64,000 nt of DNA, taken from NCBI GenBank assembly GCA_030386875.1, contig CM059563.1:50533602-50597601 (forward strand), given 5' to 3'. The notes under the pieces are model-generated. The model was not told the DNA's origin. It worked only from the letters and a program-made list of their open reading frames with translations, and made no database searches. This stretch comes from Morinoia aosen. Taxonomy: Eukaryota; Arthropoda; Malacostraca; Amphipoda; Talitridae. Positions 1-64,000 of this stretch are shown in pieces. Each line of letters starts with the position of its first letter. Within the stretch, counting starts at the first letter, position 1. The position numbers and the translations under genes were made by a program.

Positions 1-1254
1 TCGCTTCTTCAACGGCGGCTTCTGTGTTTCTACTTCTCTACTTCACCGGCGGCTTCTGTGTCGCTACTTCTCTACTTTACCGGCGGCTTCTGTGTCGCTT
101 CTTCTCTACTTCACCGGCGGCTTGTGTGTCGCTACTTCTCTACTTCAACGGCGGCTTCTGTGTCGCCACTCTGCTACTTCAACGGCGGCTTCTGTGTCGC
201 TACTTCAACGGCGGCTTCTGTGTCCCTAATTCTTTACTTCAACGGCGGCTTCTGAGTCGCCACTCTGCTACTTTAACGGCGGTTTCTGTGTCGCTACTTC
301 AACGGCGGCTTCTGTGTCGCTACTTCAACGGCGGCTTCTGTGTCGCAACTTCAACGGCGGCTTCTGTGTCGCCACTCTGCTACTTCAACGGCGGCTTCTG
401 TGTCGCTACTTCGCTTCTTCAACGGCGGCTTCTGTGTCGCTACTTCGCTTCTTCAACGGCGGCTTCTGTGTCGCTACTTTGCTTCTTCAACGGCGGCTTC
501 TGTGTCGCTACTTCGCTTCTTCAACTGCGCCTTTTGAGTCGCCACTCTGCTACTTGAACGGCGGCTTCTGTGTCGCTATTTCACTACTTCAACGGCGGCT
601 TCTGTGTCGCTATTTCACTACTTCAACGGCGGCTTCTGTGTCGCTACTTCTCTACTTCAACGGCGGCTTCTGTGTCGCTACTTCTCTACTTCAACGGCGG
701 CTTCTGTGTCGCCACTGTGCTACTTCAACGGATGCTTGTGTGTCGCCACTCTGCTACTTCAACGGCGGCTTCTGTGTCGCCACTCTGCTACTTCAACGGC
801 GGCTTCTGTGTCGCCACTTCACAACTTAAACGGCGGCTTCTGTGTCGCTAGTTCTCTACTTCAACGGCGGCTTCTGTGTCGCTACTTCGCTTCTTCAACG
901 GCGGCTTCTGTGTTTCTACTTCTCTACTTCACCGGCGGCTTCTGTGTCGCTACTTCTCTACTTTACCGGCGGCTTCTGTGTCGCTTCTTCTCTACTTTAC
1001 CGGCGGCTTGTGTGTCGCCACTGTGCTACTTCAACGGCTGCTTCTGTGTCGCCACTCTGCTACTTCAACGGCGGCTTCTGTGTCGCCACTCTGCTACTTC
1101 AACGGCGGCTTCTGTGTCGCCACTCTGCTACTTCAACAGCGGCTTCTGTGTCGCCACTCTGCTACTTCAACGGCGGCTTCTGTGTTGCCACTCTGCTACT
1201 TCAACGGCGGCTTCTGTGTCGCTACTTCACTACTTCAAAGGCGGCTTCTGTGTC

Positions 1255-1710
1255 GCCTCTTCCACTGCGGCTTCTGTGTTACTACTTCTCTACTTTAACG
1301 GCGGCTTCTGTGTCGCTACTTCTCTACTTCAACGGCGGCTTCTGTGTCGCTAATTCTCTACTTCAACGGCGGCTTTCGTGTCGCTACTGCTCTACTTCAA
1401 CGGCAGCTTCTGTGTCGCTACTGCTCTACTTCAACGGCGGCTTCTGTGTCGCCACTCTGCTGCTACTTCAACGGCGGCTACTCGGTCGCTACTTCGCTTC
1501 TTCAACGGCGGCTTCTGTGTCGCTACTTCGCTTCTTCAACGGCGGCTTCTGTGTCGCTACTTCGCTTCTTCAACGGCGGCTTCTGTGTCGCTACTTTGCT
1601 TCTTTAGCGGCGGCTTCTGTGTCGCTACTTCGCTTCTTTGGCGGCGGCTTCTGTGTCGCTACTTCGCTTCTTTAACGGCGGCTTCTGTGTCGCTACCTCG
1701 CTACTTAAAC
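1255..1710 (+). repeat. Module Y, copy 1 (456 bp)
   Basis: Begins with a shortened GCCTCTTCCACTGCGG unit and GTGTTACTAC, then two TACTGCTCTAC units, a unit with a three-base insertion (CTGCTGCTAC, near 1458), a GGCTACTCGGTCGC unit, a CGCTTCTTC/CGCTTCTTTAGCGG run, and ends in CCTCGCTACTTAAAC. The diagnostic trinucleotide in GGCTACTnnnTCGC is CGG here. Confidence 0.87.
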
Positions 1711-4700
1711 GGCGGCTTCTGTGTCGCCACTCAGCTACTTCAACGATGGCTTCTGTGTCACTACTTCACTACTTCAACGGCGGCTTCTGTGTCGCTACTT
1801 CTCCACTTCAACGGCGGCTTCTGTGTCGCTACTTCTCTACTTCAACGGCGGCTTCTGTGTCGCTACTTCTCTACTTCAACGGCGGCTTCTGTGTCGCTAC
1901 CTCGCTACCTAAACGGCGGCTTCTGTGACGCCACTGTGCTACTTCAACGGCGGATTCTGTGTCGCATCTTCAACGGCGGCTTATGTGTTGCTAATTCTCT
2001 ACTGCAAGAGCTGCTTCTGTGTCGCTTCTTCACTACTGAAACGGCGGCTCTGTGTTGCTACTTCTCTACTTCAACGGCGTCTTCTGTGTCGCCACTCTGC
2101 TACTTCAACGGCGGCTTCTGTGTCGCTACTTCAACGGCGGCTTCTGTGTCGCTACTTCAACGGCGGCTTGTGTCGCTACTTCAACGGCGGCTTCTGTGTC
2201 GCCACTCGGCTACTTCAACGGCGGCTTCTGTGTCGCTATTTCGCTACTCCAACGGCGGCTTCTGTGTCGCTACTTCGCTTCTTCAACGGCGGCTTCTGTG
2301 TCGCTACTTCGCTCTTCAACGGCGCCTTCTGAGTCGCCACTCTGCTACTTCAACGGCGGCTTCTGTGTCGCTACTTTTCTACTTCAACGGCGGCGTTTGT
2401 GTCGACACTGTGCTACTTCAACGGCTGTTTCTGTGTCGCTTCTTCACCACTTCAACGACGGCTTCTGTGTAGCTACTTCGCTACTTCAACGGCGGCTTCT
2501 GTGTCTCGACTTCTCTACTTCAACGGCGGCTTCTGTGTCGCCACTCTGCTACTTCAACGGCGGCTTCTGTGTCGCTACTTCACTACTTCAACGGCGGCTT
2601 CTGTGTCGCTTCTTCACTACTTCAACGGCGGCTTCTGTGTTGCTACTTCTCTACTTCAAGGCCGGCTTCTGTGTCGCCACTCAGCTACTTCAACAGCGGC
2701 TTCTGTGTAGCTACTTCGCTACTTCAACGGCGGCTTCTGTGTCGCTACTTCTCTACTTCAACGGCGGCTTCTGTGTTGCTACTTCTCTACCTCAACGGCG
2801 GCTTCTGTGTCGCTACTTCTCTACCTCAACGGCGGCTTCTGTGTCGCTACTTCTCTACCTCAACGGCGGCTTCTGTGTCGCTTCTTCACTACTTCAACGG
2901 TGGCTTCTGTGTTGCTACTTCACTACTTCAACGGTGGCTTCTGTGTCGCTACTTCACTACTTCAACGGCGGCTTCTGTGTCGCTACTTCTCTACTTCAAC
3001 GGCGGCTTCTGTGTCGCTACTTCTCCACTTCAACGGCGGCTTCTGTGTCGCTACTTCTCTACTTCAACAGCGGCTTCTTTGTCGCCACTCTGCTACTTCA
3101 ACGGCGGCTTCTGTGTCGCCACTCTGCTTCTTCAACGGCGGCTTCTGTGTCGCCACTCTGCTACATCAACGGCGGCTTCTGTGTCGCCACTCTGCTACAT
3201 CAACGGCGGCTTCTGTGTCGCCACTCTACTACTTCAACGGCGGCTTCTGTGTCGCTACTTCAACGGCGGCTTCTGTGTCGCTACTTCTCTACTTCAACGG
3301 CGGCTTCTGTGTCGCTACTTCTCTACTTCAACGGCGGCTTCTGTGTCGCCACTGCTACTTCAACGGCGGCTTCTGTGTCGCCACTGCTACTTCAACGGCG
3401 GCTTCTGTGTCGCCACTGCTACTTCAACGGCGGCTTCTGTGTCGCTACTGCTCTTTTTCAACGGCGGCTTCTGTGTCGCTACTTCGCTTGTTCAACGGCG
3501 GCTTCTGTGTCGCTACTTCGCTTGTTCAACGGCGGCTTCTGTGTCGCTACTTCGCTTCTTCAACGGCGGCTTCTGTGTCGCCACTCTGCTAATTCAACGG
3601 CGGCTTCTGTGTCGCTAATTCAACGGCGGCTTCTGTGTCGCTACTTCGCTGCTTCAATGGCGGCATCTGTGTCGCTACTTCGCTTCTTCAACAGCGGCTT
3701 CTGTGTCGCTACTTCGCTTTTTCAACGGCGGCTTCTGTGTCGCTACTTCGCTTTTTCAACGGCGGCTTCTGTGTCGCTACTTCGCTGCTTCTACGGCGGC
3801 TTCTGTGTCGCTACTTCGCTTCTTCAACGGCGGCTTCTGTGTCGCTACTTCGCTTCTTCAACGGCGGCTTCTGTGTCGCTACTTCGCTTCTTCAACGGCG
3901 GCTTCTGTGTCGCTACTTCGCTTCTTCAACGGCGGCTTCTGTGTCGCTACTTCGCTTCTTCAACGGCGGCTTCTGTGTCGCTACTTCGCTTCTTCAACGG
4001 CGGCTTCTGTGTCGCTACTTCGCTTCTTCAAGGGCGGCTTCTGTGTCGCTACTTCGCTTCTTCAAGGGCGGCTTCTGAGTCGCCACTCTGCTACTTCAAC
4101 GGCGGCTTCTGTGTCGCTACTTCGCTACTTCAACGGCGGCTTCTGTGTCGCTACTTCACTACTTCAACGGCGGCTTCTGTGTCGCTACTTCTCTACTTCA
4201 ACGGCGGCTTCTGTGTCGCTACTTCTCTACCTCAACGGCGGCTTCTGTGTCGCTTCTTCACTACTTCAACGGCGGCTTCTGTGTCGCTTCTTCACTACTT
4301 CAACGGTGGCTTCTGTGTCGCTACTTCACTACTTCAACGGCGGCTTCTGTGTCGCTACTTCACTACTTCAACGGCGGCTTCTGTGTCGCTACTTCTCTAC
4401 TTCGAGGCCGGCTTGTGTCGCCACTCAGCTACTTCAACAGCGGCTTCTGTGTAGCTACTTCGCTACTTCAACGGCGGCTTCTGTGTCTCGACTTCTCTAC
4501 TTCAACGGCGGCTTCTGTGTCGCTACTTCACTACTTCAACGGCGGCTTCTGTGTCGCTACTTCTCTACCTCAACGGCGGCTTCTGTGTCGCTTCTTCACT
4601 ACTTCAACGGTGGCTTCTGTGTCGCTACTTCACTACTTCAACGGCGGCTTCTGTGTCGCTACTTCTCTACTTCAACGGCGGCTTCTGTGTCGCTACTTCT

Positions 4701-5958
4701 CTACTTCAACGGCGGCTTCTGTGTCGCTACTTCTCTACTTCAACGGCGGCTTCTGTGTCGCTACTTCTCTACTTCAACGGCGGCTTCTGTGTCGCTACTT
4801 CTCTACTTCAACGGCGGCTTCTGTGTCGCTACTTCTCTACTGCAACGGCGGCTTCTGTGTCGCTACTTCTCTACTTCAACGGCGGCTTCTGTGTCGCTAC
4901 TTCTCTACTTCAACGGCGGCTTCTGTGTCGCTACTTCTCTACTTCAACAGCGGCTTCTGTGTCGCCACTCTGCTACTTCAACGGCGGCTTCTGTGTCGCC
5001 ACTCTGCTTCTTCAACGGCGGCTTCTGTGTCGCCACTCTGCTACATCAACGGCGGCTTCTGTGTCGCCACTCAGCTACTTCAACGGCGGCTTCTGTGTCG
5101 ATACTTCAACGGCGGCTTCTGTGTTGCTACTTCTCTACTCCAACGGCGGCTTCTGTGTCGCCACTGTGCTACTTCAGCGGCTGCTTCTGGGTCGCTTCTT
5201 CACTACTTCAACAGCGGCTTCTGGGTCGCTTCTTCACTACTTCAACAGCGGCTTCTGGGTCGCTTCTTCACTACTTCAACAGCGGCTTCTGGGTCGCTTC
5301 TTCACTACTTCAACAGCGGCTTCTGTGTCGCTTCTTCACTACTTCAACGGCCGCTTCTGTGTCGCTACTTCTCTACTTCAACGGCGGCTTCTGTGTCGCC
5401 ACTGCTACTTCAACGGCGGCTTCTGTGTCACCACTGCTACTTCAACGGCGGCTTCTGTGTCGCTAATTCAACGGCGGCTTCTGTGTCGCTACTTCGCTAC
5501 TTCAACGGCGGCATCTGTGTCGCTACTTCGCTTCTTCAACGGCGGCTTCTGTGTCGCTACTTCGCTTTTTCAACGGCGGCTTCTCTGTCGCTACCTCGCT
5601 TTTTCAACGGCGGCTTCTGTGTCGCTACTTCACTACTTCAACGGCGGCTTCTGTGTCGCTACTTCTCTACTTCAACGACGGCTTCTGTGTCGCCACTGTG
5701 CCACTTCAACGGCTGCTTCTGGGTCGCTCCTTCACTACTTCAACGGCGGCTTCTGTGTTGCTACTCCTCTACTTCAAGGGCGGCTTCTGTGTCGTCACTC
5801 TGCTACTTCAACGGCGGCTTCTGTGTCGCTACTTCGCTTCTTCAACGGCGGCTTCTGTGTCGCTACTTCGCTTCTTCAACGGCGGCTTCTGTGTCGCTAC
5901 TTCTCTACTTCAACGGCGGCTTCTGTGTCGCTAATTCTCTACTTCAACGGCGGCTTCT

Positions 5959-6560
5959 GTGTCGCTACTGCTCTACTTCAACGGCGGCTTCTGTGTCGCT
6001 ACTGTTCTACTTCAACGGCGGCTTCTGTGTTGCTACTTCTCTACTTCAACGGCGGCTTCTGTGTTGCTAATTCTCTACTTCAACGGCTGCTTCTGTGTCG
6101 CTTCTTCAATACTTCAACGGCGGCTCTGTATTGCTACTTCTCTACTTCAACGGCGTCTTCTGTGTCGCCACTCTGCTACTTCAACGGCGGCTTCTGTGTC
6201 GCTACTTCGCTAACTCAGCGGCGGCTTCTGTGTCGCTACTTCAACGGCGGCTTCTGTGTCGCCACTCGGCTACTTCAACGGCGGCTTCTGTGTCGCTACT
6301 TCGCTACTCCAACGGCGGCTTCTGTGTCGCTACTTCGCTACTCCAACGGCGGCTTCTTCAACGGCGGCTTCTGTGTCGCTACTTCGCTTCTTCAACGGCG
6401 GCTTCTGTGTCGCTACTTCGCTTCTTCTACGGCGGCTTCTGAGTCGCCACTCTGCTACTTCAACGGCGGCTTCTGTGTCGCTACTTTTCTACTTCAACGG
6501 CGGCTTCTGTGTCGCCACTGTGCTACTTCAACGGCTGTTTCTGTGTCGCTTCTTCACCAC
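5959..6560 (+). repeat. Module X, copy 1 (602 bp)
   Basis: A fixed order of distinctive units: TACTGCTCTAC, TACTGTTCTAC, TAATTCTCTAC, a CTTCTTCAATAC unit with truncated GGCGGCTCTGT, a GCTAACTCAGCGG unit, two TACTCC units, a 15-bp fragment (near 6350) and finally TTCTTCACCAC. This copy belongs to the subtype with CTCTGTATTGC and has CTTCTACGGCGG before the CTGAGTCGCC unit at 6431. Confidence 0.88.
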
Positions 6561-7225
6561 TTCAACGGCGGCTTCTGTGTCGCCACTCAGCTACTTCAAC
6601 AGCGGCTTCTGTGTAGCTACTTCGCTACTTCAACGGCGGCTTCTGTGTCTCGACTTCTCTACTTCAACGGCGGCTTCTGTGTCTCGACTTCTCTACTTCA
6701 ACGGCGGCTTTTGTGTCGCCACTCTGCTACTTCAACGGCGGCTTCTGTGTCGCTACTTCACTACTTCAACGGCGGCTTCTGTGTCGCTTCTTCACTACTT
6801 CAACGGCGGCTTCTGTGTCGCTTCTTCACTACTTCAACGGCGGCTTATGTGTCGCTACTCTTACTTCAAGGCCGGCTTCTGTGTCGCCACTCAGCTACTT
6901 CAACAGCGGCTTCTGTGTTGCTACTTCTCTACTTCAAGGCCGGCTTCTGTGTAGCTACTTCGCTACTTCAACGGCGGCTTCTGTGTCTCGACTTCTCTAC
7001 TTCAACGGCGGCTTCTGTGTCGCCACTCTGCTACTTCAACGGCGGCTTCTGTGTCGCCACTCTGCTACTTCAACGGCGGCTTCTGTGTCGCCACTCTGCT
7101 ACTTCAACAGCGGCTTCTGTGTCGCCACTCTGCTACTTCAACGGCGGCTTCTGTGTCGCCACTCTGCTACTTCAACGGCGGCTTCTGTGTCGCTACTTCA
7201 CTACTTCAAAGGCGGCTTCTGTGTC

Positions 7226-7681
7226 GCCTCTTCCACTGCGGCTTCTGTGTTACTACTTCTCTACTTTAACGGCGGCTTCTGTGTCGCTACTTCTCTACTT
7301 CAACGGCGGCTTCTGTGTCGCTAATTCTCTACTTCAACGGCGGCTTCCGTGTCGCTACTGCTCTACTTCAACGGCAGCTTCTGTGTCGCTACTGCTCTAC
7401 TTGAACGGCGGCTTCTGTGTCGCCACTCTGCTGCTACTTCAACGGCGGCTACTCGGTCGCTACTTCGCTTCTTCAACGGCGGCTTCTGTGTCGCTACTTC
7501 GCTTCTTCAACGGCGGTTTCTGTGTCGCTACTTCGCTTCTTCAACGGCGGCTTCTGTGTCGCTACTTCGCTTCTTTAGCGGCGGCTTCTGTGTCGCTACT
7601 TCGCTTCTTTGGCGGCGGCTTCTGTGTCGCTACTTCGCTTCTTTAACGGCGGCTTCTGTGTCGCTACCTCGCTACTTAAAC
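7226..7681 (+). repeat. Module Y, copy 2 (456 bp)
   Basis: Exactly 5,971 bp after copy 1 and also with the CGG form. Small differences include TTGAACGGCGG near 7,402 where copy 1 has TTCAACGGCGG, and TTCCGTGTCGC near 7,348 where copy 1 has TTTCGTGTCGC. Confidence 0.88.
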
Positions 7682-10600
7682 GGCGGCTTCTGTGTCGCCA
7701 CTCAGCTACTTCAACGATGGCTTCTGTGTCACTACTTCACTACTTCAACGGCGGCTTCTGTGTCGCTACTTCTCCACTTCAACGGCGGCTTCTGTGTCGC
7801 TACTTCTCTACTTCAACGGCGGCTTCTGTGTCGCTACTTCTCTACTTCAACGGCGGCTTCTGTGTCGCTACCTCGCTACCTAAACGGCGGCTTCTGTGAC
7901 GCCACTGTGCTACTTCAACGGCGGCTTCTGTGTCGCATCTTCAACGGCGGCTTATGTGTTGCTAATTCTCTACTGCAAGAGCTGCTTCTGTGTCGCTTCT
8001 TCACTACTGAAACGGCGGCTCTGTGTTGCTACTTCTCTACTTCAACGGCGTCTTCTGTGTCGCCACTCTGCTACTTCAACGGCGGCTTCTGTGTCGCTAC
8101 TTCAACGGCGGCTTCTGTGTCGCTACTTCAACGGCGGCTTGTGTCGCTACTTCAACGGCGGCTTCTGTGTCGCCACTCGGCTACTTCAACGGCGGCTTCT
8201 GTGTCGCTATTTCGCTACTCCAACGGCGGCTTCTGTGTCGCTACTTCGCTTCTTCAACGGCGGCTTCTGTGTCGCTACTTCGCTCTTCAACGGCGCCTTC
8301 TGAGTCGCCACTCTGCTACTTCAACGGCGGCTTCTGTGTCGCTACTTTTCTACTTCAACGGCGGCGTTTGTGTCGACACTGTGCTACTTCAACGGCCGTT
8401 TCTGTGTCGCTTCTTCACCACTTCAACGGCGGCTTCTGTGTTGCTACTTCTCTACTTCAAGGCCGGCTTCTGTGTCGCCACTCAGCTACTTCAACAGCGG
8501 CTTCTGTGTAGCTACTTCGCTACTTCAACGGCGGCTTCTGTGTCTCGACTTCTCTACTTCAACGGCGGCTTCTGTGTCGCCACTCTGCTACTTCAACGGC
8601 GGCTTCTGTGTCGCTACTTCACTACTTCAACGGCGGCTTCTGTGTCGCTTCTTCACTACTTCAACGGCGGCTTCTGTGTTGCTACTTCTCTACTTCAAGG
8701 CCGGCTTCTGTGTCGCCACTCAGCTACTTCAACAGCGGCTTCTGTGTAGCTACTTCGCTACTTCAACGGCGGCTTCTGTGTCTCGACTTCTCTACTTCAA
8801 CGGCGGCTTCTGTATCGCCACTCTGCTACGTCAACGGCGGCTTCTGTGTCGCTACTTCGCTATTTCAACGGCGGCTTCTGTGTTGCTACTTCGCTATTTC
8901 AACGGCGGCTTCTGTGTTGCTACTTCTCTACCTCAACGGCGGCTTCTGTGTCGCTACTTCTCTACCTCAACGGCGGCTTCTGTGTCGCTACTTCTCTACC
9001 TCAACGGCGGCTTCTGTGTCGCTTCTTCACTACTTCAACGGTGGCTTCTGTGTTGCTACTTCACTACTTCAACGGTGGCTTCTGTGTCGCTACTTCACTA
9101 CTTCAACGGTGGCTTCTGTGTCGCTACTTCACTACTTCAACGGCGGCTTCTGTGTCGCTACTTCTCTACTTCAACGGCGGCTTCTGTGTCGCTACTTCTC
9201 CACTTCAACGGCGGCTTCTGTGTCGCTACTTCTCTACTTCAACAGCGGCTTCTTTGTCGCCACTCTGCTACTTCAACGGCGGCTTCTGTGTCGCCACTCT
9301 GCTTCTTCAACGGCGGCTTCTGTGTCGCCACTCAGCTACATCAACGGCGGCTTCTGTGTCGCCACTCTGCTACATCAACGGCGGCTTCTGTGTCGCCACT
9401 CTACTACTTCAACGGCGGCTTCTGTGTCGCTACTTCAACGGCGGCTTCTGTGTCGCTACTTCTCTACTTCAACGGCGGCTTCTGTGTCGCTACTTCTCTA
9501 CTTCAACGGCGGCTTCTGTGTCGCCACTGCTACTTCAACGGCGGCTTCTGTGTCGCCACTGCTACTTCAACGGCGGCTTCTGTGTCGCCACTGCTACTTC
9601 AACGGCGGCTTCTGTGTCGCTACTGCTCTTTTTCAACGGCGGCTTCTGTGTCGCTACTTCGCTTGTTCAACGGCGGCTTCTGTGTCGCTACTTCGCTTGT
9701 TCAACGGCGGCTTCTGTGTCGCTACTTCGCTTCTTCAACGGCGGCTTCTCAACGGCGGCTTCTGTGTCGCCACTCTGCTAATTCAACGGCGGCTTCTGTG
9801 TCGCTAATTCAACGGCGGCTTCTGTGTCGCTACTTCGCTGCTTCAACGGCGGCATCTGTGTCGCTACTTCGCTTCTTCAACAGCGGCTTCTGTGTCGCTA
9901 CTTCGCTTTTTCAACGGCGGCTTTTGTGTCGCTACTTCGCTTTTTCAACGGCGGCTTCTGTGTCGCTACTTCGCTGCTTCTACGGCGGCTTCTGTGTCGC
10001 TACTTCGCTTCTTCAACGGCGGCTTCTGTGTCGCTACTTCGCTTCTTCAACGGCGGCTTCTGTGTCGCTACTTCGCTTCTTCAACGGCGGCTTCTGTGTC
10101 GCTACTTCGCTTCTTCAACGGCGGCTTCTGTGTCGCTACTTCGCTTCTTCAACGGCGGCTTCTGTGTCGCTACTTCGCTTCTTCAACGGCGGCTTCTGTG
10201 TCGCTACTTCGCTTCTTCAACGGCGGCTTCTGTGTCGCTACTTCGCTTCTTCAACGGCGCCTTCTGAGTCGCCACTCTGCTACTTCAACGGCGGCTTCTG
10301 TGTCGCTACTTCACTACTTCAACAGCGGCTTCTGGGTCGCTTCTTCACTACTTCAACAGCGGCTTCTGTGTCGCTTCTTCACTACTTCAACGGCCGCTTC
10401 TGTGTCGCTACTTCTCTACTTCAACGGCGGCTTCTGTGTCGCCACTGCTACTTCAACGGCGGCTTCTGTGTCACCACTGCTACTTCAACGGCGGCTTCTG
10501 TGTCGCTAATTCAACGGCGGCTTCTGTGTCGCTACTTCGCTACTTCAACGGCGGCATCTGTGTCGCTACTTCGCTTCTTCAACGGCGGCTTCTGTGTCGC

Positions 10601-11035
10601 TACTTCGCTTTTTCAACGGCGGCTTCTGTGTCGCTACCTCGCTTTTTCAACGGCGGCTTCTGTGTCGCTACCTCGCTTTTTCAACGGCGGCTTCTGTGTC
10701 GCTACTTCACTACTTCAACGGCGGCTTCTGTGTCGCTACTTCTCTACTTCAACGACGGCTTCTGTGTCGCCACTGTGCCACTTCAACGGCTGCTTCTGGG
10801 TCGCTCCTTCACTACTTCAACGGCGGCTTCTGTGTTGCTACTCCTCTACTTCAAGGGCGGCTTCTGTGTCGTCACTCTGCTACTTCAACGGCGGCTTCTG
10901 TGTCGCTACTTCGCTTCTTCAACGGCGGCTTCTGTGTCGCTACTTCGCTTCTTCAACGGCGGCTTCTGTGTCGCTACTTCTCTACTTCAACGGCGGCTTC
11001 TGTGTCGCTAATTCTCTACTTCAACGGCGGCTTCT

Positions 11036-11603
11036 GTGTCGCTACTGCTCTACTTCAACGGCGGCTTCTGTGTCGCTACTGTTCTACTTCAACGGCGGCT
11101 TCTGTGTTGCTACTTCTCTACTTCAACGGCGGCTTCTGTGTTGCTAATTCTCTACTTCAACGGCTGCTTCTGTGTCGCTTCTTCAATACTTCAACGGCGG
11201 CTCTGTATTGCTACTTCTCTACTTCAACGGCGGCTTCTGTGTCGCTACTTCGCTAACTCAGCGGCGGCTTCTGTGTCGCTACTTCAACGGCGGCTTCTGT
11301 GTCGCCACTCGGCTACTTCAACGGCGGCTTCTGTGTCGCTACTTCGCTACTCCAACGGCGGCTTCTGTGTCGCTACTTCGCTACTCCAACGGCGGCTTCT
11401 TCAACGGCGGCTTCTGTGTCGCTACTTCGCTTCTTCAACGGCGGCTTCTGTGTCGCTACTTCGCTTCTTCTACGGCGGCTTCTGAGTCGCCACTCTGCTA
11501 CTTCAACGGCGGCTTCTGTGTCGCTACTTTTCTACTTCAACGGCGGCTTCTGTGTCGCCACTGTGCTACTTAAACGGCTGTTTCTGTGTCGCTTCTTCAC
11601 CAC
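11036..11603 (+). repeat. Module X, copy 2 (568 bp)
   Basis: Same order as copy 1 but one unit shorter: the unit with AACGGCGTCTTCTG is missing, so CTCTGTATTGC leads straight to the GCTAACTCAGCGG unit. It has CTTAAACGGCTG near 11,570 in place of CTTCAACGGCTG. Confidence 0.88.
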
Positions 11604-13221
11604 TTCAACGGCGGCTTCTGTGTCGCCACTCAGCTACTTCAACAGCGGCTTCTGTGTAGCTACTTCGCTACTTCAACGGCGGCTTCTGTGTCTCGACTTC
11701 TCTACTTCAACGGCGGCTTCTGTGTCGCCACTCTGCTACTTCAACGGCGGCTTCTGTGTCGCTACTTCACTACTTCAACGGCGGCTTCTGTGTCGCTTCT
11801 TCACTACTTCAACGGCGGCTTCTGTGTCGCTTCTTCACTACTTCAACGGCGGCTTATGTGTCGCTACTCTTACTTCAAGGCCGGCTTCTGTGTCGCCACT
11901 CAGCTACTTCAACAGCGGCTTCTGTGTTGCTACTTCTCTACTTCAAGGCCGGCTTCTGTGTAGCTACTTCGCTACTTCAACGGCGGCTTCTGTGTCTCGA
12001 CTTCTCTACTTCAACGGCGGCTTCTGTGTCGCCACTCGGCTACTTCAACGGCGGCTTCTGTGTCGCTACTTCGCTACTTAAACGGCCGCTTCTGTGTCGC
12101 TACTTCACTACTTCAACGGCGGCTTCTGTGTCGCTACTTCTCTACCTCAACGGCGGCTTCTGTGTCTCGACTTCTCTACTTCAACGGCGGCTTCTGTGTC
12201 GCCACTCTGCTACTTCAACGGCGGCTTCTGTGTCGCTACTTCGCTACTTCAACGGCGGCTTCTGTGTTGCTACTTCACTACTTCAACGGCGGCTTCTGTG
12301 TCGCTACTTCTCTACCTCAACGGCGGCTTCTGTGTCGCTACTTCTCTACCTCAACGGCGGCTTCTGTGTCGCTTCTTCACTACTTCAACGGTGGCTTCTG
12401 TGTCGCTACTTCACTAATTCAACAGCGGCTTCTGTGTCGCTACTTCTCTACTTTAACGGCGGCTTCTGTGTCGCTACTTCTCTACTTCAACGGTGGCTTC
12501 TGTGTCGCTACTTCTCTACTTCAACAGCGGCTTCTTTGTCGCCACTCTGCTACTTCAACGGCGGCTTCTGTGTCGCCACTCTGCTTCTTCAACGGCGGCT
12601 TCTGTGTCGCCACTCTGCTTCTTCAACGGCGGCTTCTGTGTCGCCACTCTGCTACATCAACGGCGGCTTCTGTGTCGCCACTCTGCTACATCAACGGCGG
12701 CTTCTGTGTCGCCACTCTGCTACATCAACGGCGGCTTCTGTGTCGCCACTCTGCTACTTCAACGGCGGCTTCTGTGTCGCTACTTCTCTACTTCAACTTC
12801 GGCTTCTGTGTCGCCACTGTGCTACTTCAGCGGCTGCTTCTGTGTCGCTTCTTCACCACTTCCACGGCGGCTTCTGTGTTGCTACTTCTCTACTTCAAGG
12901 CCGGCTTCTGTGTCGCCACTCAGCTACTTCAACAGCGGCTTCTGTGTAGCTACTTCGCTACTTCAACGGCGGCTTCTGTGTCTCGACTTCTCTACTTCAA
13001 CGGCGGCTTCTGTGTCGCCACTCTGCTACTTCAACCGCGGCTTCTGTGTCGCTACTTCACTACTTCAACGGCGGCTTCTGTGTCGCTACTTCGCTTTCTC
13101 AACGGCGGCATCTGTGTCGCTACTTCGCTTCTTCAACAGCGGCTTCTGTGTCGCTACTTCGCTTCTTCAACAGCGGCTTCTGTGTCGCTACTTCGCTTCT
13201 TCAACGGCGGCTTCTGTGTCG

Positions 13222-50600: not shown

Positions 50601-50647
50601 CGCCACTCTGCTACTTCAACGGCGGCTTCTGTGTCGCCACTTCACAA
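47640..50647 (+). repeat. ~3.01-kb nested duplication, left copy of second pair
   Basis: Counterpart of 38.49-41.51 kb within the second 9.15-kb block. The repeat distance to the next copy is 3,008 bp. It lacks the CTTCTCAACGG fragment near its right end and has one more short 26-bp unit near 49,440. It contains module X copy 7. Confidence 0.83.
47657..48258 (+). repeat. Module X, copy 7 (602 bp)
   Basis: Second subtype, 9,155 bp after copy 5. I found no base difference from copy 5 in the parts compared. The left junction near 47,450 differs because two blocks were joined there. Confidence 0.88.
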
Positions 50648-53040
50648 CTTGAACGGCGGCTTCTGTGTCGCTACTGCTCTACTTCAACGGCGGCTTCTGT
50701 GTCGCTACTGTTCTACTTCAACGGCGGCTTCTGTGTCGCTACTTCTCTACTTCAACGGCGGCTTCTGTGTTGCTAATTCTCTACTTCAACGGCTGCTTCT
50801 GTGTCGCTTCTTCAATACTTCAACGGCGGCTCTGTGTTGCTACTTCTCTACTTCAACGGCGTCTTCTGTGTCGCCACTCTGCTACTTCAACGGCGGCTTC
50901 TGTGTCGCTACTTCGCTAACTCAGCGGCGGCTTCTGTGTCGCTACTTCAACGGCGGCTTCTGTGTCGCCACTCGGCTACTTCAACGGCGGCTTCTGTGTC
51001 GCTACTTCGCTACTCCAACGGCGGCTTCTGTGTCGCTACTTCGCTACTCCAACGGCGGCTTCTTCAACGGCGGCTTCTGTGTCGCTACTTCGCTTCTTCA
51101 ACGGCGGCTTCTGTGTCGCTACTTCGCTTCTTCAACGGCGCCTTCTGAGTCGCCACTCTGCTACTTCAACGGCGGCTTCTGTGTCGCTACTTTTCTACTT
51201 CAACGGCGGCTTCTGTGTCGCCACTGTGCTACTTCAACGGCTGTTTCTGTGTCGCTTCTTCACCACTTCAACGGCGGCTTCTGTGTTGCTACTTCTCTAC
51301 TTCAAGGCCGGCTTCTGTGTCGCCACTCAGCTACTTCAACAGCGGCTTCTGTGTAGCTACTTCGCTACTTCAACGGCGGCTTCTGTGTCTCGACTTCCCT
51401 ACTTCAACGGCGGCTTCTGTGTCGCCACTCTGCTACTTCAACGGCGGCTTCTGTGTCGCTACTTCACTACTTCAACGGCGGCTTCTGTGTCGCTTCTTCA
51501 CTACTTCAACGGCGGCTTCTGTGTCGCTTCTTCACTACTTCAACGGCGGCTTCTGTGTCGCTTCTTCACTACTTCAACGGCGGCTTATGTGTCGCTACTT
51601 CTCTACTTCAAGGCCGGCTTCTGTGTCGCCACTCAGCTACTTCAACAGCGGCTTCTGTGTTGCTACTTCTCTACTTCAAGGCCGGCTTCTGTGTAGCTAC
51701 TTCGCTACTTCAACGGCGGCTTCTGTGTCTCGACTTCTCTACTTCAACGGCGGCTTCTGTGTCTCGACTTCTCTACTTCAACGGCGGCTTCTATGTCGCC
51801 ACTCTGCTACTTCAACGGCGGCTTCTGTGTCGCTACTTCGCTACTTCAACGGCGGCTTCTGTGTCGCTACTTCACTACTTCAACGGCGGCTTCTGTGTCG
51901 CTACTTCTCTACCTCAACGGCGGCTTCTGTGTCTCGACTTCTCTACTTCAACGGCGGCTTCTGTGTCGCCACTCTGCTACTTCAACGGCGGCTTCTGTGT
52001 CGCCACTCCGCTACTTCAACGGCGGCTTCTGTGTTGCTACTTCACTACTTCAACGGCGGCTTCTGTGTCGCTACTTCTCTACCTCAACGGCGGCTTCTGT
52101 GTCGCTACTTCTCTACCTCAACGGCGGCTTCTGTGTCGCTTCTTCACTACTTCAACGGTGGCTTCTGTGTCGCTACTTCACTAATTCAACGGCGGCTTCT
52201 GTGTCGCTACTTCTCTACTTTAACGGCGGCTTCTGTGTCGCTACTTCTCTACTTCAACGGCGGCTTCTTTGTCGCTACTTCTCTACTTCAACAGCGGCTT
52301 CTTTGTCGCCACTCTGCTACTTCAACAGCGGCTTCTTTGTCGCCACTCTGCTACTTCAACGGCGGCTTCTGTGTCGCCACTCTGCTTCTTCAACGGCGGC
52401 TTCTGTGTCGCCACTCTGCTACATCAACGGCGGCTTCTGTGTCGCCACTCTGCTACTTCAACGGCGGCTTCTGTGTCGCTACTTCAACGGCGGCTTCTGT
52501 GTCGCTACTTCTCTACTTCAACTTCGGCTTCTGTGTCGCCACTGTGCTACTTCAGCGGCTGCTTCTGTGTCGCTTCTTCACCACTTCCACGGCGGCTTCT
52601 GTGTTGCTACTTCTCTACTTCAAGGCCGGCTTCTGTGTCGCCACTCAGCTACTTCAACAGCGGCTTCTGTGTAGCTACTTCGCTACTTCAACGGCGGCTT
52701 CTGTGTCTCGACTTCTCTACTTCAACGGCGGCTTCTCTGTCGCCACTCTGCTACTTCAACGGCGGCTTCTGTGTCGCTACTTCACTACTTCAACGGCGGC
52801 TTCTGTGTCGCTACTTCGCTTTCTCAACGGCGGCTTCTGTGTCGCTACTTCGCTTTCTCAACGGCGGCTTCTGTGTCGCTACTTCGCTTCTTCAACAGCG
52901 GCTTCTGTGTCGCTACTTCGCTTTTTCAACGGCGGCTTCTGTGTCGCTACTTCGCTTTTTCAACGGCGGCTTCTGTGTCGCTACTTCGCTTTTTCAACGG
53001 CGGCTTCTGTGTCGCTACTTCGCTTTTTCAACGGCGGCTT
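50648..53040 (+). repeat. ~3.01-kb nested duplication, right copy of second pair
   Basis: Counterpart of 41.5-43.98 kb at +9,133 bp. It ends at the same kind of join, a CGCTTTTTC run followed by CACTCAGCTAC at about 53,050. The shared join shows that the nested 3-kb pair existed before the 9.15-kb block was duplicated. Private changes include CACTCCGCTAC near 52,006 and CGGCTTCTTTGTCGC near 52,263. Confidence 0.83.
50665..51266 (+). repeat. Module X, copy 8 (602 bp)
   Basis: Second subtype, 3,008 bp after copy 7 and 9,133 bp after copy 6. It has the ordinary TACTTCTCTAC linker, so the private change of copy 6 arose after the 9.15-kb duplication. Confidence 0.88.
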
Positions 53041-54500
53041 CTGTGTCGCCACTCAGCTACTTCAACAGCGGCTTCTGTGTTGCTACTTCTCTACTTCAAG
53101 GCCGGCTTCTGTGTAGCTACTTCGCTACTTCAACGGCGGCTTCTGTGTCTCGACTTCTCTACTTCAACGGCGGCTTCTGTGTTGCCACTCTGCTACTTCA
53201 ACGGCGGCTTCTGTGTCGCTACTTCGCTACTTAAACGGCGGCTTCTGTGTCGCTACTTCACTACTTCAACGGCGGCTTCTGTGTCGCTACTTCTCTACCT
53301 CAACGGCGGCTTCTGTGTCTCGACTTCTCTACTTCAACGGCGGCTTCTGTGTCGCCACTCTGCTACTTCAACGGCGGCTTCTGTGTCGCCACTCTGCTAC
53401 TTCAACGGCGGCTTCTGTGTCGCTACTTCGCTACTTCAACGGCGGCTTCTGTGTTGCTACTTCACTACTTCAACGGCGGCTTCTGTGTCGCTACTTCTCT
53501 ACCTCAACGGCGGCTTCTGTGTCGCTACTTCTCTACCTCAACGGCGGCTTCTGTGTCGCTTCTTCACTACTTCAACGGTGGCTTCTGTGTCGCTACTTCA
53601 CTACTTCAACGGCGGCTTCTGTGTCGCTACTTCTCTACTTCAACGGCGGCTTCTGTGTCGCTACTTCTCCACTTCAACGGCGGCTTCTGTGTCGCTACTT
53701 CTCTACTTCAACAGCGGCTTCTTTGTCGCCACTCTGCTACTTCAACGGCGGCTTCTGTGTCGCCACTCTGCTTCTTCAACGGCGGCTTCTGTGTCGCCAC
53801 TCTGCTACATCAACGGCGGCTTCTGTGTCGCCACTCTGCTACATCAACGGCGGCTTCTGTGTCGCCACTCTACTACTTCAACGGCGGCTTCTGTGTCGCT
53901 ACTTCAACGGCGGCTTCTGTGTCGCTACTTCTCTACTTCAACGGCGGCTTCTGTGTCGCTACTTCTCTACTTCAACGGCGGCTTCTGTGTCGCCACTGCT
54001 ACTTCAACGGCGGCTTCTGTGTCGCCACTGCTACTTCAACGGCGGCTTCTGTGTCGCCACTGCTACTTCAACGGCGGCTTCTGTGTCGCCACTGCTACTT
54101 CAACGGCGGCTTCTGTGTCGCTACTGCTCTTTTTCAACGGCGGCTTCTGTGTCGCTACTTCGCTTGTTCAACGGCGGCTTCTGTGTCGCTACTTCGCTTG
54201 TTCAACGGCGGCTTCTGTGTCGCTACTTCGCGTCTTCAACGGCGGCTTCTCAACGGCGGCTTCTGTGTCGCCACTCTGCTAATTCAACGGCGGCTTCTGT
54301 GTCGCTAATTGAACGGCGGCTTCTGTGTCGCTACTTCGCTGCTTCAACGGCGGCATCTGTGTCGCTACTTCGCTTCTTCAACAGCGGCTTCTGTGTCGCT
54401 ACTTCGCTTTTTCAACGGCGGCTTCTGTGTCGCTACTTCGCTTTTTCAACGGCGGCTTCTGTGTCGCTACTTCGCTGCTTCTACGGCGGCTTCTGTGTCG

Positions 54501-54862
54501 CTACTTCGCTTCTTCAACGGCGGCTTCTGTGTCGCTACTTCGCTTCTTCAACGGCGGCTTCTGTGTCGCTACTTCGCTTCTTCAACGGCGGCTTCTGTGT
54601 CGCTACTTCGCTTCTTCAACGGCGGCTTCTGTGTCGCTACTTCGCTTCTTCAACGGCGGCTTCTGTGTCGCTACTTCGCTTCTTCAACGGCGGCTTCTGT
54701 GTCGCTACTTCGCTTCTTCAACGGCGGCTTCTGTGTCGCTACTTCGCTTCTTCAACGGCGGCTTCTGTGTCGCTACTTCGCTTCTTCAACGGCGGCTTCT
54801 GTGTCGCTACTTCGCTTCTTCAACGGCGGCTTCTGTGTCGCTACTTCGCTTCTTCAACGGCG
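54501..54862 (+). repeat. Homogeneous run of 11 CGCTTCTTC units
   Basis: Eleven successive units from 54507 to 54847, ended by the AACGGCGCCTTCTGAGTC unit. Paralogous runs have eight units (3817-4055, 10006-10244 and the copy near 21.95-22.18 kb) or seven plus one CGCTTTTTC unit (45161-45398). This is the longest run of its lineage. Confidence 0.93.
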
Positions 54863-57800
54863 CCTTCTGAGTCGCCACTCTGCTACTTCAACGGCGGCTT
54901 CTGTGTCGCTACTTCGCTACTTCAACGGCGGCTTCTGTGTCGCTACTTCACTACTTCAACGGCGGCTTCTGTGTCGCTACTTCTCTACTTCAACGGCGGC
55001 TTCTGTGTCGCTACTTCTCTACCTCAACGGCGGCTTCTGTGTCGCTTCTTCACTACTTCAACGGCGGCTTCTGTGTCGCTTCTTCACTACTTCAAGGGTG
55101 GCTTCTGTGTCGCTACTTCACTACTTCAACGGCGGCTTCTGTGTCGCTACTTCACTACTTCAACGGCGGCTTCTGTGTCGCTACTTCTCTACTTCAAGGC
55201 CGGCTTGTGTCGCCACTCAGCTACTTCAACAGCGGCTTCTGTGTAGCTACTTCGCTACTTCAACGGCGGCTTCTGTGTCTCGACTTCTCTACTTCAACGG
55301 CGGCTTCTGTGTCGCTACTTCACTACTTCAACGGCGGCTTCTGTGTCGCTACTTCTCTGCCTCAACGGCGGCTTCTGTGTCGCTTCTTCACTACTTCAAC
55401 GGTGGCTTCTGTGTCGCTACTTCACTAATTCAACAGCGGCTTCTGTGTCGCTACTTCTCTACTTTAACGGCGGCTTCTGTGTCGCTACTTCTCTACTTCA
55501 ACGGTGGCTTCTGTGTCGCTACTTCTCTACTTCAACAGCGGCTTCTTTGTCGCCACTCTGCTACTTCAACGGCGGCTTCTGTGTCGCCACTCTGCTTCTT
55601 CAACGGCGGCTTCTGTGTCGCCACTCTGCTACATCAACGGCGGCTTCTGTGTCGCCACTCTGCTACTTCAACGGCGGCTTCTGTGTCGCTACTTCTCTAC
55701 TTCAACTTCGGCTTCTGTGTCGCCACTGTGCTACTTCAGCGGCTGCTTCTGTGTCGCTTCTTCACCACTTCCACGGCGGCTTCTGTGTTGCTACTTCTCT
55801 ACTTCAAGGCCGGCTTCTGTGTCGCCACTCAGCTACTTCAACAGCGGCTTCTGTGTAGCTACTTCGCTACTTCAACGGCGGCTTCTGTGTCTCGACTTCT
55901 CTACTTCAACGGCGGCTTCTGTGTCGCCACTCTGCTACTTCAACCGCGGCTTCTGTGTCGCTACTTCACTACTTCAACGGCGGCTTCTGTGTCGCTACTT
56001 CGCTTTCTCAACGGCGGCATCTGTGTCGCTACTTCGCTTCTTCAACAGCGGCTTCTGTGTCGCTACTTCGCTTCTTCAACAGCGGCTTCTGTGTCGCTAC
56101 TTCGCTTCTTCAACGGCGGCTTCGGTGTCGCTACTTCGCTTTTTCAACGGCGGCTTCTGTGTCGCTACTTCGCTTTTTCAACGGCGGCTTCTGTGTCGCT
56201 ACTTCGCTTTTTCAACGGCGGCTTCTGTGTCGCTACTTCGCTTTTTCAACGGCGGCTTCTGTGTCGCTACTTCGCTTTTTCAACGGCGGCTTCTGTGTCG
56301 CTACTTCGCTTTTTCAACGGCGGCTTTTGTGTCGCTACTTCGCTTCTTCAACGGCGGCTTCTCAACGGCGGCTTCTGTGTCGCCACTCTGCTAATTCAAC
56401 GGCGGCTTCTGTGTCGCTAATTCAACGGCGGCTTCTGTGTCGCCACTCTGCAACTTCAACGGCGGCTTCTGTGTCGCTACCTCACTACTTCATCGGCGGC
56501 TTCTGTGTCGCTACTTCTCTACTTCAACGGCGGCTTCTGTGTCGCTACTTCGCTTTTTCAACGGCGGCTTCTGTGTCGCTACTTCGCTTCTTCAACGGCG
56601 GCTTCTGTGTCGCTACTTCGCTTCTTCAACGACGGCTTCTGTGTCGCCACTCTGCTACCTCAACGGCGGCTTCTGTGTCGCTACTTCGCAACTTCAACGG
56701 TGGCTTCTGCGTCGCTACTTCGCTTCTTCAACGGGGGCTTCTGTGTCGCCACTGTGCTACTTCGACGGCGGCTTCTGTGTCGCTTCTTCACTTCTTCAAC
56801 GGCGGCTTCTGTGTTGCTACTTCTCTACTTCAACGGCGGCTTCTGTGTCGCCACTCTGCTACTTCAACGGCGGCTTCGGTGTCGCTACTTCGCTTTTTCA
56901 ACGGCGGCTTCTGTGTCGCTACTTCGCTTTTTCAACGGCGGCTTCTGTGTCGCTACTTCGCTTTTTCAACGGCGGCTTCTGTGTCGCTACTTCGCTTCTT
57001 CAACGGCGCCTTCTGAGTCGCCACTCTGCTACTTCAACGGCGGCTTCTGTGTCGCCACTTCACAACTTGAACGGCGGCTTCTGTGTCGCTAGTTCTCTAC
57101 TTCAACGGCGGCTTCTGTGTCGCTAATTCTCTACTTCAACGGCGGCTTCTGTGTCGCTAATTCTCTACTTCAACGGCTGCTTCTGTGTCGCTTCTTCACT
57201 ACTTCAACAGCGGCTCTGTGTTGCTACATCTCTACTTCAACGGCGTCTTCTGTGTCGCCACTCTGCTACTGCAACGGCGGCTTCTGTGTCGCTACTTCGC
57301 TAACTCAGCGGCGGCTTCTGTGTCGCTACTTCGCTAACTCAGCGGCGGCTTCTGTGTCACTACTTGAACCGCGGCTTCTGTGTCGCCACTCGGCTACTTC
57401 AACGGCGGCTTCTGTGTCGCTACTTCAACGGCGCCTTCTGTGTCGCTACTTCGCTACTTCAACGGCGGCTTCTGTGTCGCTACTTCGCTACTTCAACGGC
57501 GGCTTCTGTGTCGCTACTTCGCTACTTCAACGGCGGCTTCTGTGTCGCTGCTTCGCTACTTCAACGGCGGCTTCTGTGTCGCTACTTCGCTACTTCAACG
57601 GCGGCTTCTATGTCGCTACTTCGCTTCTTCAACGGCGGCTTCTGTGTCGCTACTTCGCTTCTTCAACGGCGGCTTCTGTGTCGCTACTTCGCTTCTTCAA
57701 CGGCGGCTTCTGTGTCGCTACTTCGCTTCTTCAACGGCGGCTTCTGTGTTCCTACTTCTCTACTTTACCGGCGGCTTCTGTGTCGCTACTTCTCTACTCT

Positions 57801-60902: not shown

Positions 60903-63900
60903 TACTTCGCTTCTTTAACGGCGGCTTCTGTGTCGCCACTCAGATACTTGAACGGCGGCTTCTGTGTCGCCACTCAGCTACTTCAACGGCGGCTTCTGTG
61001 TCGCTACTTCTCTACTTCAACGGCGGCTTTTGTGTCGCCACTGTGCTACTTCAACGGCGGCTTCTGTGTCGCTAATTCAACGGCGGCTTCTGTGTCGCTA
61101 CTTCGCTTCTTCAACGGCGGCTTCTGTGTCGCTACTTCGCATTTTCAACGGCGGCTTCTGTGTCGCTACCTCGCTTTTTCAACAGCGGCTTCTGTGTCGC
61201 TACTTCACTACTTCAACGGCGGCTTCTGTGTCGCTACTTCTCTACTTCAACGACGGCTTCTGTGTCGCCACTGTGCCACTTCAACGGCTGCTTCTGGGTC
61301 GCTTCTTCACTACTTCAACGGCGGCTTCTGTGTTGCTACTCTACTTCAAGGGCGGCTTCTGTGTCGTCACTCTGCTACTTCAACGGCGGCTTCTGTGTCG
61401 CTACTTCGCTTCTTCAACGGCGGCTTCTGTGTCGCTACTTCGCTTCTTCAACGGCAGCTTCTGTGTCGCTACTTCTCTACTTCAACGGCGGCTTCTGTGT
61501 CGCTAATTCTCTACTTCAACGGCGGCTTCTGTGTCGCTACTGCTCTACTTCAACGGCGGCTTCTGTGTCGCTACTGTTCTACTTCAACGGCGGCTTCTGT
61601 GTCGCTACTTCTCTACTTCAACGGCGGCTTCTGTGTTGCTAATTCTCTACTTCAACGGCTGCTTCTGTGTCGCTTCTTCAATACTTCAACGGCGGCTCTG
61701 TGTTGCTACTTCTCTACTTCAACGGCGTCTTCTGTGTCGCCACTCTGCTACTTCAACGGCGGCTTCTGTGTCGCTACTTCGCTAACTCAGCGGCGGCTTC
61801 TGTGTCGCTACTTCAACGGCGGCTTCTGTGTCGCCACTCGGCTACTTCAACGGCGGCTTCTGTGTCGCTACTTCGCTACTCCAACGGCGGCTTCTGTGTC
61901 GCTACTTCGCTACTCCAACGGCGGCTTCTTCAACGGCGGCTTCTGTGTCGCTACTTCGCTTCTTCAACGGCGGCTTCTGTGTCGCTACTTCGCTTCTTCA
62001 ACGGCGCCTTCTGAGTCGCCACTCTGCTACTTCAACGGCGGCTTCTGTGTCGCTACTTTTCTACTTCAACGGCGGCTTCTGTGTCGCCACTGTGCTACTT
62101 CAACGGCTGTTTCTGTGTCGCTTCTTCACCACTTCAACGGCGGCTTCTGTGTTGCTACTTCTCTACTTCAAGGCCGGCTTCTGTGTCGCCACTCAGCTTC
62201 TTCAACAGCGGCTTCTGTGTAGCTACTTCGCTACTTCAACGGCGGCTTCTGTGTCTCGACTTCCCTACTTCAACGGCGGCTTCTGTGTCTCGACTTCCCT
62301 ACTTCAACGGCGGCTTCTGTGTCGCCACTCTGCTACTTCAACGGCGGCTTCTGTGTCGCTACTTCACTACTTCAACGGCGGCTTCTGTGTCGCTTCTTCA
62401 CTACTTCAACGGCGGCTTCTGTGTCGCTTCTTCACTACTTCAACGGCGGCTTCTGTGTCGCTTCTTCACTACTTCAACGGCGGCTTATGTGTCGCTACTT
62501 CTCTACTTCAAGGCCGGCTTCTGTGTCGCCACTCAGCTACTTCAACAGCGGCTTCTGTGTTGCTACTTCTCTACTTCAAGGCCGGCTTCTGTGTAGCTAC
62601 TTCGCTACTTCAACGGCGGCTTCTGTGTCTCGACTTCTCTACTTCAACGGCGGCTTCTGTGTCTCGACTTCTCTACTTCAACGGCGGCTTCTGTGTCGCC
62701 ACTCTGCTACTTCAACGGCGGCTTCTGTGTCGCTACTTCGCTACTTCAACGGCGGCTTCTGTGTCGCTACTTCACTACTTCAACGGCGGCTTCTGTGTCG
62801 CTACTTCTCTACCTCAACGGCGGCTTCTGTGTCTCGACTTCTCTACTTCAACGGCGGCTTCTGTGTCGCCACTCTGCTACTTCAACGGCGGCTTCTGTGT
62901 CGCCACTTCGCTACTTCAACGGCGGCTTCTGTGTTGCTACTTCACTACTTCAACGGCGGCTTCTGTGTCGCTACTTCTCTACCTCAACGGCGGCTTCTGT
63001 GTCGCTACTTCTCTACCTCAACGGCGGCTTCTGTGTCGCTTCTTCACTACTTCAACGGTGGCTTCTGTGTCGCTACTTCACTAATTCAACGGCGGCTTCT
63101 GTGTCGCTACTTCTCTACTTTAACGGCGGCATCTGTGTCGCTACTTCTCTACTTCAACAGCGGCTTCTTTGTCGCCACTCTGCTACTTCAACGGCGGCTT
63201 CTGTGTCGCCACTCTGCTTCTTCAACGGCGGCTTCTGTGTCGCCACTCTGCTACATCAACGGCGGCTTCTGTGTCGCCACTCTGCTACATCAACGGCGGC
63301 TTCTGTGTCGCCACTCTGCTACTTCAACGGCGGCTTCTGTGTCGCTACTTCAACGGCGGCTTCTGTGTCGCTACTTCTCTACTTCAACTTCGGCTTCTGT
63401 GTCGCCACTGTGCTACTTCAGCGGCTGCTTCTGTGTCGCTTCTTCACCACTTCCACGGCGGCTTCTGTGTTGCTACTTCTCTACTTCAAGGCCGGCTTCT
63501 GTGTCGCCACTCAGCTACTTCAACAGCGGCTTCTGTGTAGCTACTTCGCTACTTCAACGGCGGCTTCTGTGTCTCGACTTCTCTACTTCAACGGCGGCTT
63601 CTCTGTCGCCACTCTGCTACTTCAACGGCGGCTTCTGTGTCGCTACTTCACTACTTCAACGGCGGCTTCTGTGTCGCTACTTCACTACTTCAACGGCGGC
63701 TTCTGTGTCGCTACTTCGCTTTCTCAACGGCGGCTTCTGTGTCGCTACTTCGCTTTCTCAACGGCGGCTTCTGTGTCGCTACTTCGCTTCTTCAACAGCG
63801 GCTTCTGTGTCGCTACTTCGCTTCTTCAACGGCGGCTTCTGTGTCGCTACTTCGCTTCTTCAACGGCGGCTTCTGTGTCGCTACTTCGCTTTTTCAACGG

Positions 63901-64000
63901 CGGCTTCTGTGTCGCTACTTCGCTTTTTCAACGGCGGCTTCTGTGTCGCTACTTCGCTTCTTCAACGGCGGCTTCTGTGTCGCTACTTCGCTTTTTCAAC
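60640..64000 (+). repeat. Copy of 37.67-41 kb running off the window
   Basis: Follows 37.67 kb onward at offsets of 23,029 and then 23,063 bp; the extra unit is a duplicated GTCTCGACTTCCC unit near 62,250-62,290. It starts inside a CACTCAGCTAC run with eight units here and six at 37.67 kb. Its first 0.8 kb is also shared with 18.0-18.86 kb. It carries module X copy 9 and continues past the right edge of the window. Confidence 0.8.
61531..62132 (+). repeat. Module X, copy 9 (602 bp)
   Basis: Second subtype, 23,029 bp after copy 5 and with the same flanks on both sides, so it was copied together with 37.7-41 kb. Confidence 0.88.

Follow-up and report, generated by a model that had tools for sequence, protein, structure and literature searches.

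Nested block duplications of variable size in a 34-bp satellite array of Morinoia aosen suggest repeated out-of-register recombination

In 1976, Smith reportedly modelled satellite DNA as evolving by unequal crossover (cited in PMC9549924). As far as the consulted parts of the sources go, primate centromere arrays are built in layers, with newer forms inside and others at the periphery (PMC11062924, PMC9549924); in Arabidopsis, variant telomeric repeats show local homogenization together with higher-order repeats, and their change in size is attributed to slippage and unequal crossing over (PMC11406999); and a minisatellite map is written as a string of symbols that stand for repeat types (PMC2897807). 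Here we analyse a stretch of 64,000 bp (the window) of contig CM059563.1 in assembly GCA_030386875.1 of the amphipod Morinoia aosen; the contig is called C8 below, and the window is C8:50533602-50597601. It is the interior of a 353-kb array of head-to-tail 34-bp units, in which long blocks of variant units recur in the same order and smaller duplications lie inside larger ones. We consider it quite probable that the array grows by repeated unequal recombination, guided by homology and in register, between misaligned copies, with blocks of variable size.

A single tandem array fills the window, the mean unit being AACGGCGGCTTCTGTGTCGCTACTTCGCTACTTC. Cutting at a conserved anchor yielded 1,897 units of 255 types, including minority lengths of 26, 32, 33, 48/49, 37, 31 and 24 bp. 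The array extends from about C8:50375221 to about C8:50728220, i.e., it sits at 50.4-50.7 Mb of a 69.0-Mb contig. The evidence comes from one assembled genome sequence of 1.99 Gb in 29 contigs, which has 115 matches to the cuticle domain PF00379 and contains TTAGG repeats, both as in arthropods. The portions of the array that were read are the window, 128.2 kb rightward, separated from the window by a gap of 2.4 kb, a left-edge stretch of 4.8 kb and, in short pieces, about 25 kb of the 153 kb between the left-edge stretch and the window.

The earlier note on this stretch had claimed nested duplications at six size scales, with offsets of 304 to 13,026 bp. All of these offsets are present as exact matches in a base-level self-comparison, with long matches of 1,287 bp at offset 1,258, 681 bp at 3,008, 587 bp at 3,030, 471 bp at 5,971, 1,262 bp at 9,133, 1,401 bp at 9,155, 4,267 bp at 11,938 and 2,100 bp at 13,026; offset 304 corresponds to a single exact match of 309 bp at 45575. 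With units coded as symbols, the window contains 141 uninterrupted runs of at least 8 units, the longest of 125, compared to none in 20 order shuffles and a mean of 33, with a longest run of 19, in 20 first-order Markov chains. By uninterrupted runs alone, only 1,258, 9,133-9,155 and 11,938/13,026 stand out from the null; the longest runs at 304 (9 units), 5,971 (14), 3,030 (16) and 3,008 (19) stay within the Markov maximum. When mismatches were allowed, the best stretch of 40 units had 37 matching at 1,258, 37 at 3,008-3,030, 34 at 5,971, and all 40 at 9,133-9,155, at 11,938 and at 13,026, compared to at most 22 in the Markov null (20 chains, all lags of at least 8 units). Five of the six groups of offsets exceed this null, whereas 304, with 14 of 40, is not above chance. 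Altogether, 38 unit lags in the window, which are not independent of each other, exceed the null maximum; therefore, the six offsets are an undercount. Blocks of at least 680 bp with an at least 97%-identical partner elsewhere in the window cover 96.2% of it, a fraction for which no null was calculated.

The listed offsets reduce to about six events (Table 1). Offsets 11,938 and 13,026 are one event: the shift between them arises because the 1,258-bp pair is confined to the right 12-kb copy, and because the two copies differ by five units (170 bp), so that 13,026 = 11,938 + 1,258 - 170. The five-unit difference maps to the run of identical units in the left copy, where the offset changes from 13196 to 13026 near position 13,400. 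Offsets 3,008/3,030 and 9,133/9,155 are best read as one event each plus later insertions and deletions; the 9.1-kb pair starts at 9,155, stands at 9,133 mid-way and drifts from 9,065 to 9,449 through such changes. The 3.0-kb pair in the right 9.1-kb copy is best read as the left-copy pair carried along by the 9.1-kb duplication. In the 5,971-bp pair, the second copy has a net deletion of 1,146 bp (offset 6,189 to 5,043). Two segments, 19535-21069 and 45831-47430, have no partner in the 12-kb and 9.1-kb chains, respectively. The nesting that had been claimed is thus real, with the 1,258-bp pair inside the right 12-kb copy and a 3-kb pair inside each 9-kb copy. The six size scales are not a property of the array, given that several offsets are one event with subsequent changes and that other offsets occur beyond the window.

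The nesting also suggests an order of events. The 3-kb pair is present in both 9-kb copies, and the 3-kb event is therefore presumably older than the 9-kb event; the 1,258-bp pair is present in just one 12-kb copy, and would therefore be younger than the 12-kb event. Mismatches were counted in ungapped stretches chosen after chaining, so that true divergence is understated: 15/4,582 for the 3-kb pairs, 5/4,818 for the 9-kb pair (1/2008 and 4/2810), 4/10,432 for the 12-kb pair (0/4267 and 4/6165), 0/1,287 for the 1,258-bp pair and 7/2,047 for the 5,971-bp pair (6/1386 and 1/661). The order by divergence agrees with the order by nesting (3-kb above 9-kb, and 12-kb above 1,258-bp).

Several kinds of evidence bear on the mechanism. 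First, the blocks lie nearly in tandem. The ratio of the offset to the aligned span of the first copy lies at 0.98 to 1.25 (304/309, 1258/1287, 3030/2432, 3008/2458, 9155/7555 and 11938/10403), and the 304-, 1,258- and 5,971-bp pairs touch, the last one at 1040-7028 followed by 7011 onward, with 1,234 bp inside the first copy unmatched. Second, the unit register is retained at block ends, as expected of in-register recombination. The unit spanning the end of a block is equal in length in both copies at 90 of 100 breaks (45/49 left and 45/51 right), these breaks not being independent because pairs have break points in common; at the remaining ten, the length differs by 8, 14, 2 or 1 bp. Units of odd length are not enriched at breaks: they occur at 2 of 138 break places, compared to 31 of 1,897 units in total. 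Third, the orientation is single: an exact 24-base pattern of the C8 type has 5,209 forward and 0 reverse matches in the whole genome. Within about 193.5 kb of the array, 2,853 of these were counted, i.e., 14.7 per kb; the remaining 2,356, if located in the approximately 156 kb of uncounted array, would amount to 15.1 per kb, and because these densities are alike, all 5,209 matches can belong to this array. Fourth, in simulations of duplication and deletion (27 runs in all, not fitted to the data), blocks of 1-100 or 1-1,500 units gave distant runs of the observed order. Near-tandem blocks, retained register, one orientation and the simulations together point to homology-guided, out-of-register exchange of any size. 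Further points in favour are the offsets in excess of the null (304 apart), the agreement of nesting with divergence, four identical 3.4-kb stretches tens of kilobases apart, and the presence of 26-bp units at either edge of the 34-bp array (see below).

Under such a mechanism, misaligned copies would recombine by unequal sister-chromatid exchange or by break-induced replication restarted out of register, and each event would gain or lose a contiguous block of whole units, mostly beside itself. Block size would start at one unit and, in the parts that were read, reach at least about 10 kb; probably, it extends to tens of kilobases. With sizes so variable, later small duplications would land inside earlier large ones, and vice versa, and the offsets would be frozen accidents of the duplication history rather than functional periods.

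Several observations weigh against this account. In the 3-, 9- and 12-kb events, the final 13-20% of the first copy has no partner, which requires one to postulate a subsequent deletion, an exchange with another allele or a copy that was not adjacent. No simulated block setting matched every statistic: at a similar number of types, blocks of up to 51 kb gave 202-337 distant runs versus 115 observed, and blocks of up to 3.4 kb yielded 74-102 such runs, the longest measuring 52-89 units versus 125 observed. Near the left edge of the array, about 2 kb of 26-bp units are nearly 100% identical unit to unit, so that age and decay do not by themselves describe the edges. The blocks are known from a single assembled sequence, and of the array between the left-edge stretch and the window about 25 of 153 kb were read. 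Finally, in the part of the source consulted, new variants in human centromeres are reported to spread otherwise than by simple unequal crossover (PMC11062924).

Rolling-circle amplification, in which excised circles are copied and returned by homologous recombination, is an alternative that we regard as unlikely. It would likewise yield in-register blocks of any size in one orientation, and re-insertion elsewhere in the array would account for the blocks that are imperfectly adjacent; however, it predicts bursts of identical copies at one offset, whereas the largest offsets in the window have two copies each. It should be noted that, as pathways, sister exchange, break-induced replication and circle re-insertion fit the data alike and cannot be told apart.

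Another source of the offsets could be a genuine higher-order repeat whose one or few periods were fixed, like those of alpha satellite, and which has partly decayed or been disturbed by insertions and deletions; this is improbable. A module of some kilobases is repeatedly copied without fixed spacing. The window has nine copies of a 29-bp marker (6344, 11387, 23325, 34824, 38887, 41917, 48042, 51050 and 61916), a recurrence that a higher-order repeat would explain, and several of the previously listed offsets reappear among its spacings; however, these eight spacings (5,043, 11,938, 11,499, 4,063, 3,030, 6,125, 3,008 and 10,866 bp) range from 3,008 to 11,938 bp. Blocks of variant units are indeed repeated in order and are far more alike than units, with 99.4-100% identity in the measured ungapped stretches versus about 85% for neighbouring units (lag 34). 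No block in the window is repeated many times at one period, and no period of at least 1 kb has a three-copy match above 70% there in an ungapped fixed-offset test, which is blind to copies bearing insertions or deletions. With the best three-copy period at just 70% and the marker spacing irregular, a settled higher-order period was rejected.

In the 128 kb to the right of the window, different offsets prevail, and nearest-copy distances include 2,708, 5,673, 9,632, 10,576, 13,637, 15,927 and 15,961 bp. At offset 10,576, a 10.9-kb stretch has an at least 97%-identical partner in every 680-bp segment, and this is the largest block read whole. The 2,708-bp period reaches about 2.8 copies and is the nearest approach to a set period, which speaks for the higher-order repeat. 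The likening of the array to a higher-order repeat that has not settled on one period therefore holds in part: modules recur and the blocks are as alike as in such a repeat, but no period of at least 1 kb in the window has three good consecutive copies. A tandem-coverage scan with a loose offset tolerance listed nested units of up to 52 kb; it merges events, and its numbers were not used.

An assembly artefact, i.e., haplotype copies or mis-joined reads set in series, is quite improbable. Identical tandem blocks of kilobases do have the appearance of false duplication. Against this stand more than two copies of one stretch, as well as differences between copies by substitutions and by insertions and deletions of whole units. 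Four 3.4-kb stretches, near C8 positions 50416808, 50464106, 50502803 and 50533602, match perfectly along 3,400 bp; neighbours are 30.8, 38.7 and 47.3 kb apart, and a further identical pair in the array is 47.4 kb apart, these separations of 31-47 kb being distances and not proven block sizes, with the intervening array mostly unread. Repeated offsets are also found among matches on another contig, C7, where, among the 69 matches listed, 4 pairs of the same type share offset 8,846 and 1,000 shuffles of the labels gave no more than 3; two of the four are neighbouring units, and this result is suggestive only. Replication slippage by a few units per step, with the large offsets coincidental, is practically out of the question: runs of identical single units such as that at 13200-13606 and small length differences do exist, and offset 304 by itself is not above the Markov null, but steps of 1-10 units left all 9 of 9 simulated runs without any lag of at least 30 units that collected 24 units in runs, versus 19 such lags observed, and copied stretches as long as 4 to 6 kb differ at just 0 to 4 positions, so that slippage alone is refuted for large blocks.

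The array has layers as well as blocks. At the left edge, 23-bp units are followed by 26-bp and then by 34-bp units, and the right edge returns to 26 bp; the 34-bp unit corresponds to the 26-bp one in which the internal 8 bp TCGCTACT are doubled. With 26- and 23-bp units outside and 34-bp units inside, the 34-bp form is suggested to be the younger one, which may have spread from within the array. There are 26-bp relatives on C2 and C7, and C7 also carries 34-bp forms. The idea of a 34-bp form restricted to C8 proved wrong, as 22 exact signature matches are listed on C7; allowing up to 2 mismatches, the signature has 623 reverse matches in the genome. These distributions would fit an expansion of the 34-bp form, mid-way in the C8 array, within a family of 26-bp units.

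A long head-to-tail array of similar units spans the window, and we take it to be a non-coding satellite that probably lacks a function. As judged from sequence, there is no protein-coding constraint, the varied unit lengths (34, 26, 32, 33, 49, 48, 37, 31 and 24 bp) shifting the frame freely. All 146 open reading frames of at least 150 amino acids in the window are on the forward strand, because the unit has no stop codons on that strand, and all but six begin with GTG. A coding repeat was rejected in view of the frame-shifting unit lengths and of this pattern of a stop-free unit. A known RNA family was also considered and rejected, there being no Rfam match at gathering scores. A literature search with an 18-base core of the unit gave no match, which carries little weight.

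Other elements were recorded in the course of the analysis. The right tail of the array contains a long terminal repeat (LTR) retrotransposon with matches to reverse transcriptase, RNase H, integrase core and zinc knuckle, which we take to be of the Ty3/gypsy type; beyond it lies a short decayed tail of the array. The remaining elements are given at the end of Table 1.

Table 1. Coordinates of the array, of the duplications within it and of other elements. Positions without a prefix are those of the window.
Feature	Position	Strand	Basis or detail
34-bp head-to-tail satellite array	1-64000 (whole window)	+	Tandem Repeats Finder, 1,897 copies, period 34
5,971-bp tandem duplication	1040-12037: 1040-7010 with 7011-12037	+	chains 1040-4031 with 7011-10220 and 5266-7028 with 10309-12037
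About 12-kb duplication	9132-32560: 9132-19534 with 21070-32560	+	chaining; offset 11,938, then 13,026
Run of identical units	13200-13606	+	lag 34, exact over 373 bp
1,258-bp perfect tandem duplication	24050-26594: 24050-25336 with 25308-26594	+	1,287 bp exact
9.1-kb duplication	38276-55279: 38276-45830 with 47431-55279	+	chaining
3.0-kb duplication, offset 3,030/3,064, within left 9.1-kb copy	38489-43984	+	chain; 4/1579 and 1/801 mismatches
304-bp (9-unit) tandem pair	45577-46184	+	309 bp exact; within the range of the Markov null
3.0-kb duplication, offset 3,008/3,016, within right 9.1-kb copy	47644-53049	+	chain; 10/1757 and 0/445 mismatches
9.8-kb LTR retrotransposon	L051:8221 to L052:8035 (C8:50728221-50738035)		identical LTRs of 237 bp each; target duplication of 4 bp (CTGC)
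Array of 26-bp relatives	C7:61938778-62013614	reverse	minimum extent from the matches listed
Array of 26-bp relatives	C7:64605012-64674739	reverse	minimum extent from the matches listed
Array of 26-bp relatives	C2:17602592-17625377	forward	minimum extent from the matches listed
Tandem repeat, 182-bp period	L055:53-898		about four copies
Perfect 388-bp inverted repeat	L055:3273-3660 and 3990-4377		329-bp spacer; fold-back element-like
Interior TTAGG telomere-type arrays	several places on C1, e.g., C1:29645251-29645520		among the matches listed

Growth by unequal, in-register recombination is a process of ordinary satellite turnover; it is the record that is unusually readable. With a short unit and many variants, one can bound individual duplication events, put them in order and measure their size, a difficult task where a satellite is homogeneous. 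Tentatively, the 353-kb array may be viewed as a legible record of higher-order repeats at their start: unequal exchanges would be scale-free, from one unit to tens of kilobases, with no period having won yet, a module scattered irregularly, a first candidate period of 2,708 bp near the right end, and a basic unit that switched from 26 to 34 bp mid-array. The array should be useful for measuring the distribution of exchange sizes and for testing the origin of higher-order periods.

As in the model of Smith, the C8 array consists of head-to-tail units, would gain and lose blocks in register, and has an expanded central form with other units at the edges; the difference is in the short 34-bp unit with 255 distinguishable variants among 1,897, which makes the history of blocks directly readable. 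With the higher-order arrays of alpha satellite, as portrayed in the consulted sections of the sources, it shares ordered blocks of variant monomers and newer forms within, with others at the periphery (PMC11062924, PMC9549924); it differs in having no set period repeated many times and in a 34-bp monomer versus one of about 171 bp, and nothing here indicates a centromere. Variant telomeric arrays of Arabidopsis, in the portion of the paper used, are similar in that variant units are read in order (PMC11406999), whereas their unit of about 7 bp is found at chromosome ends, compared to 34-bp units in a contig-internal array of 353 kb with blocks of kilobases. Minisatellite maps, as outlined in the part of the source consulted, use the same coding of units by symbols that the earlier note had proposed for this stretch (PMC2897807); there, a locus is typed in many individuals, whereas C8 offers a single array of great length from one genome.

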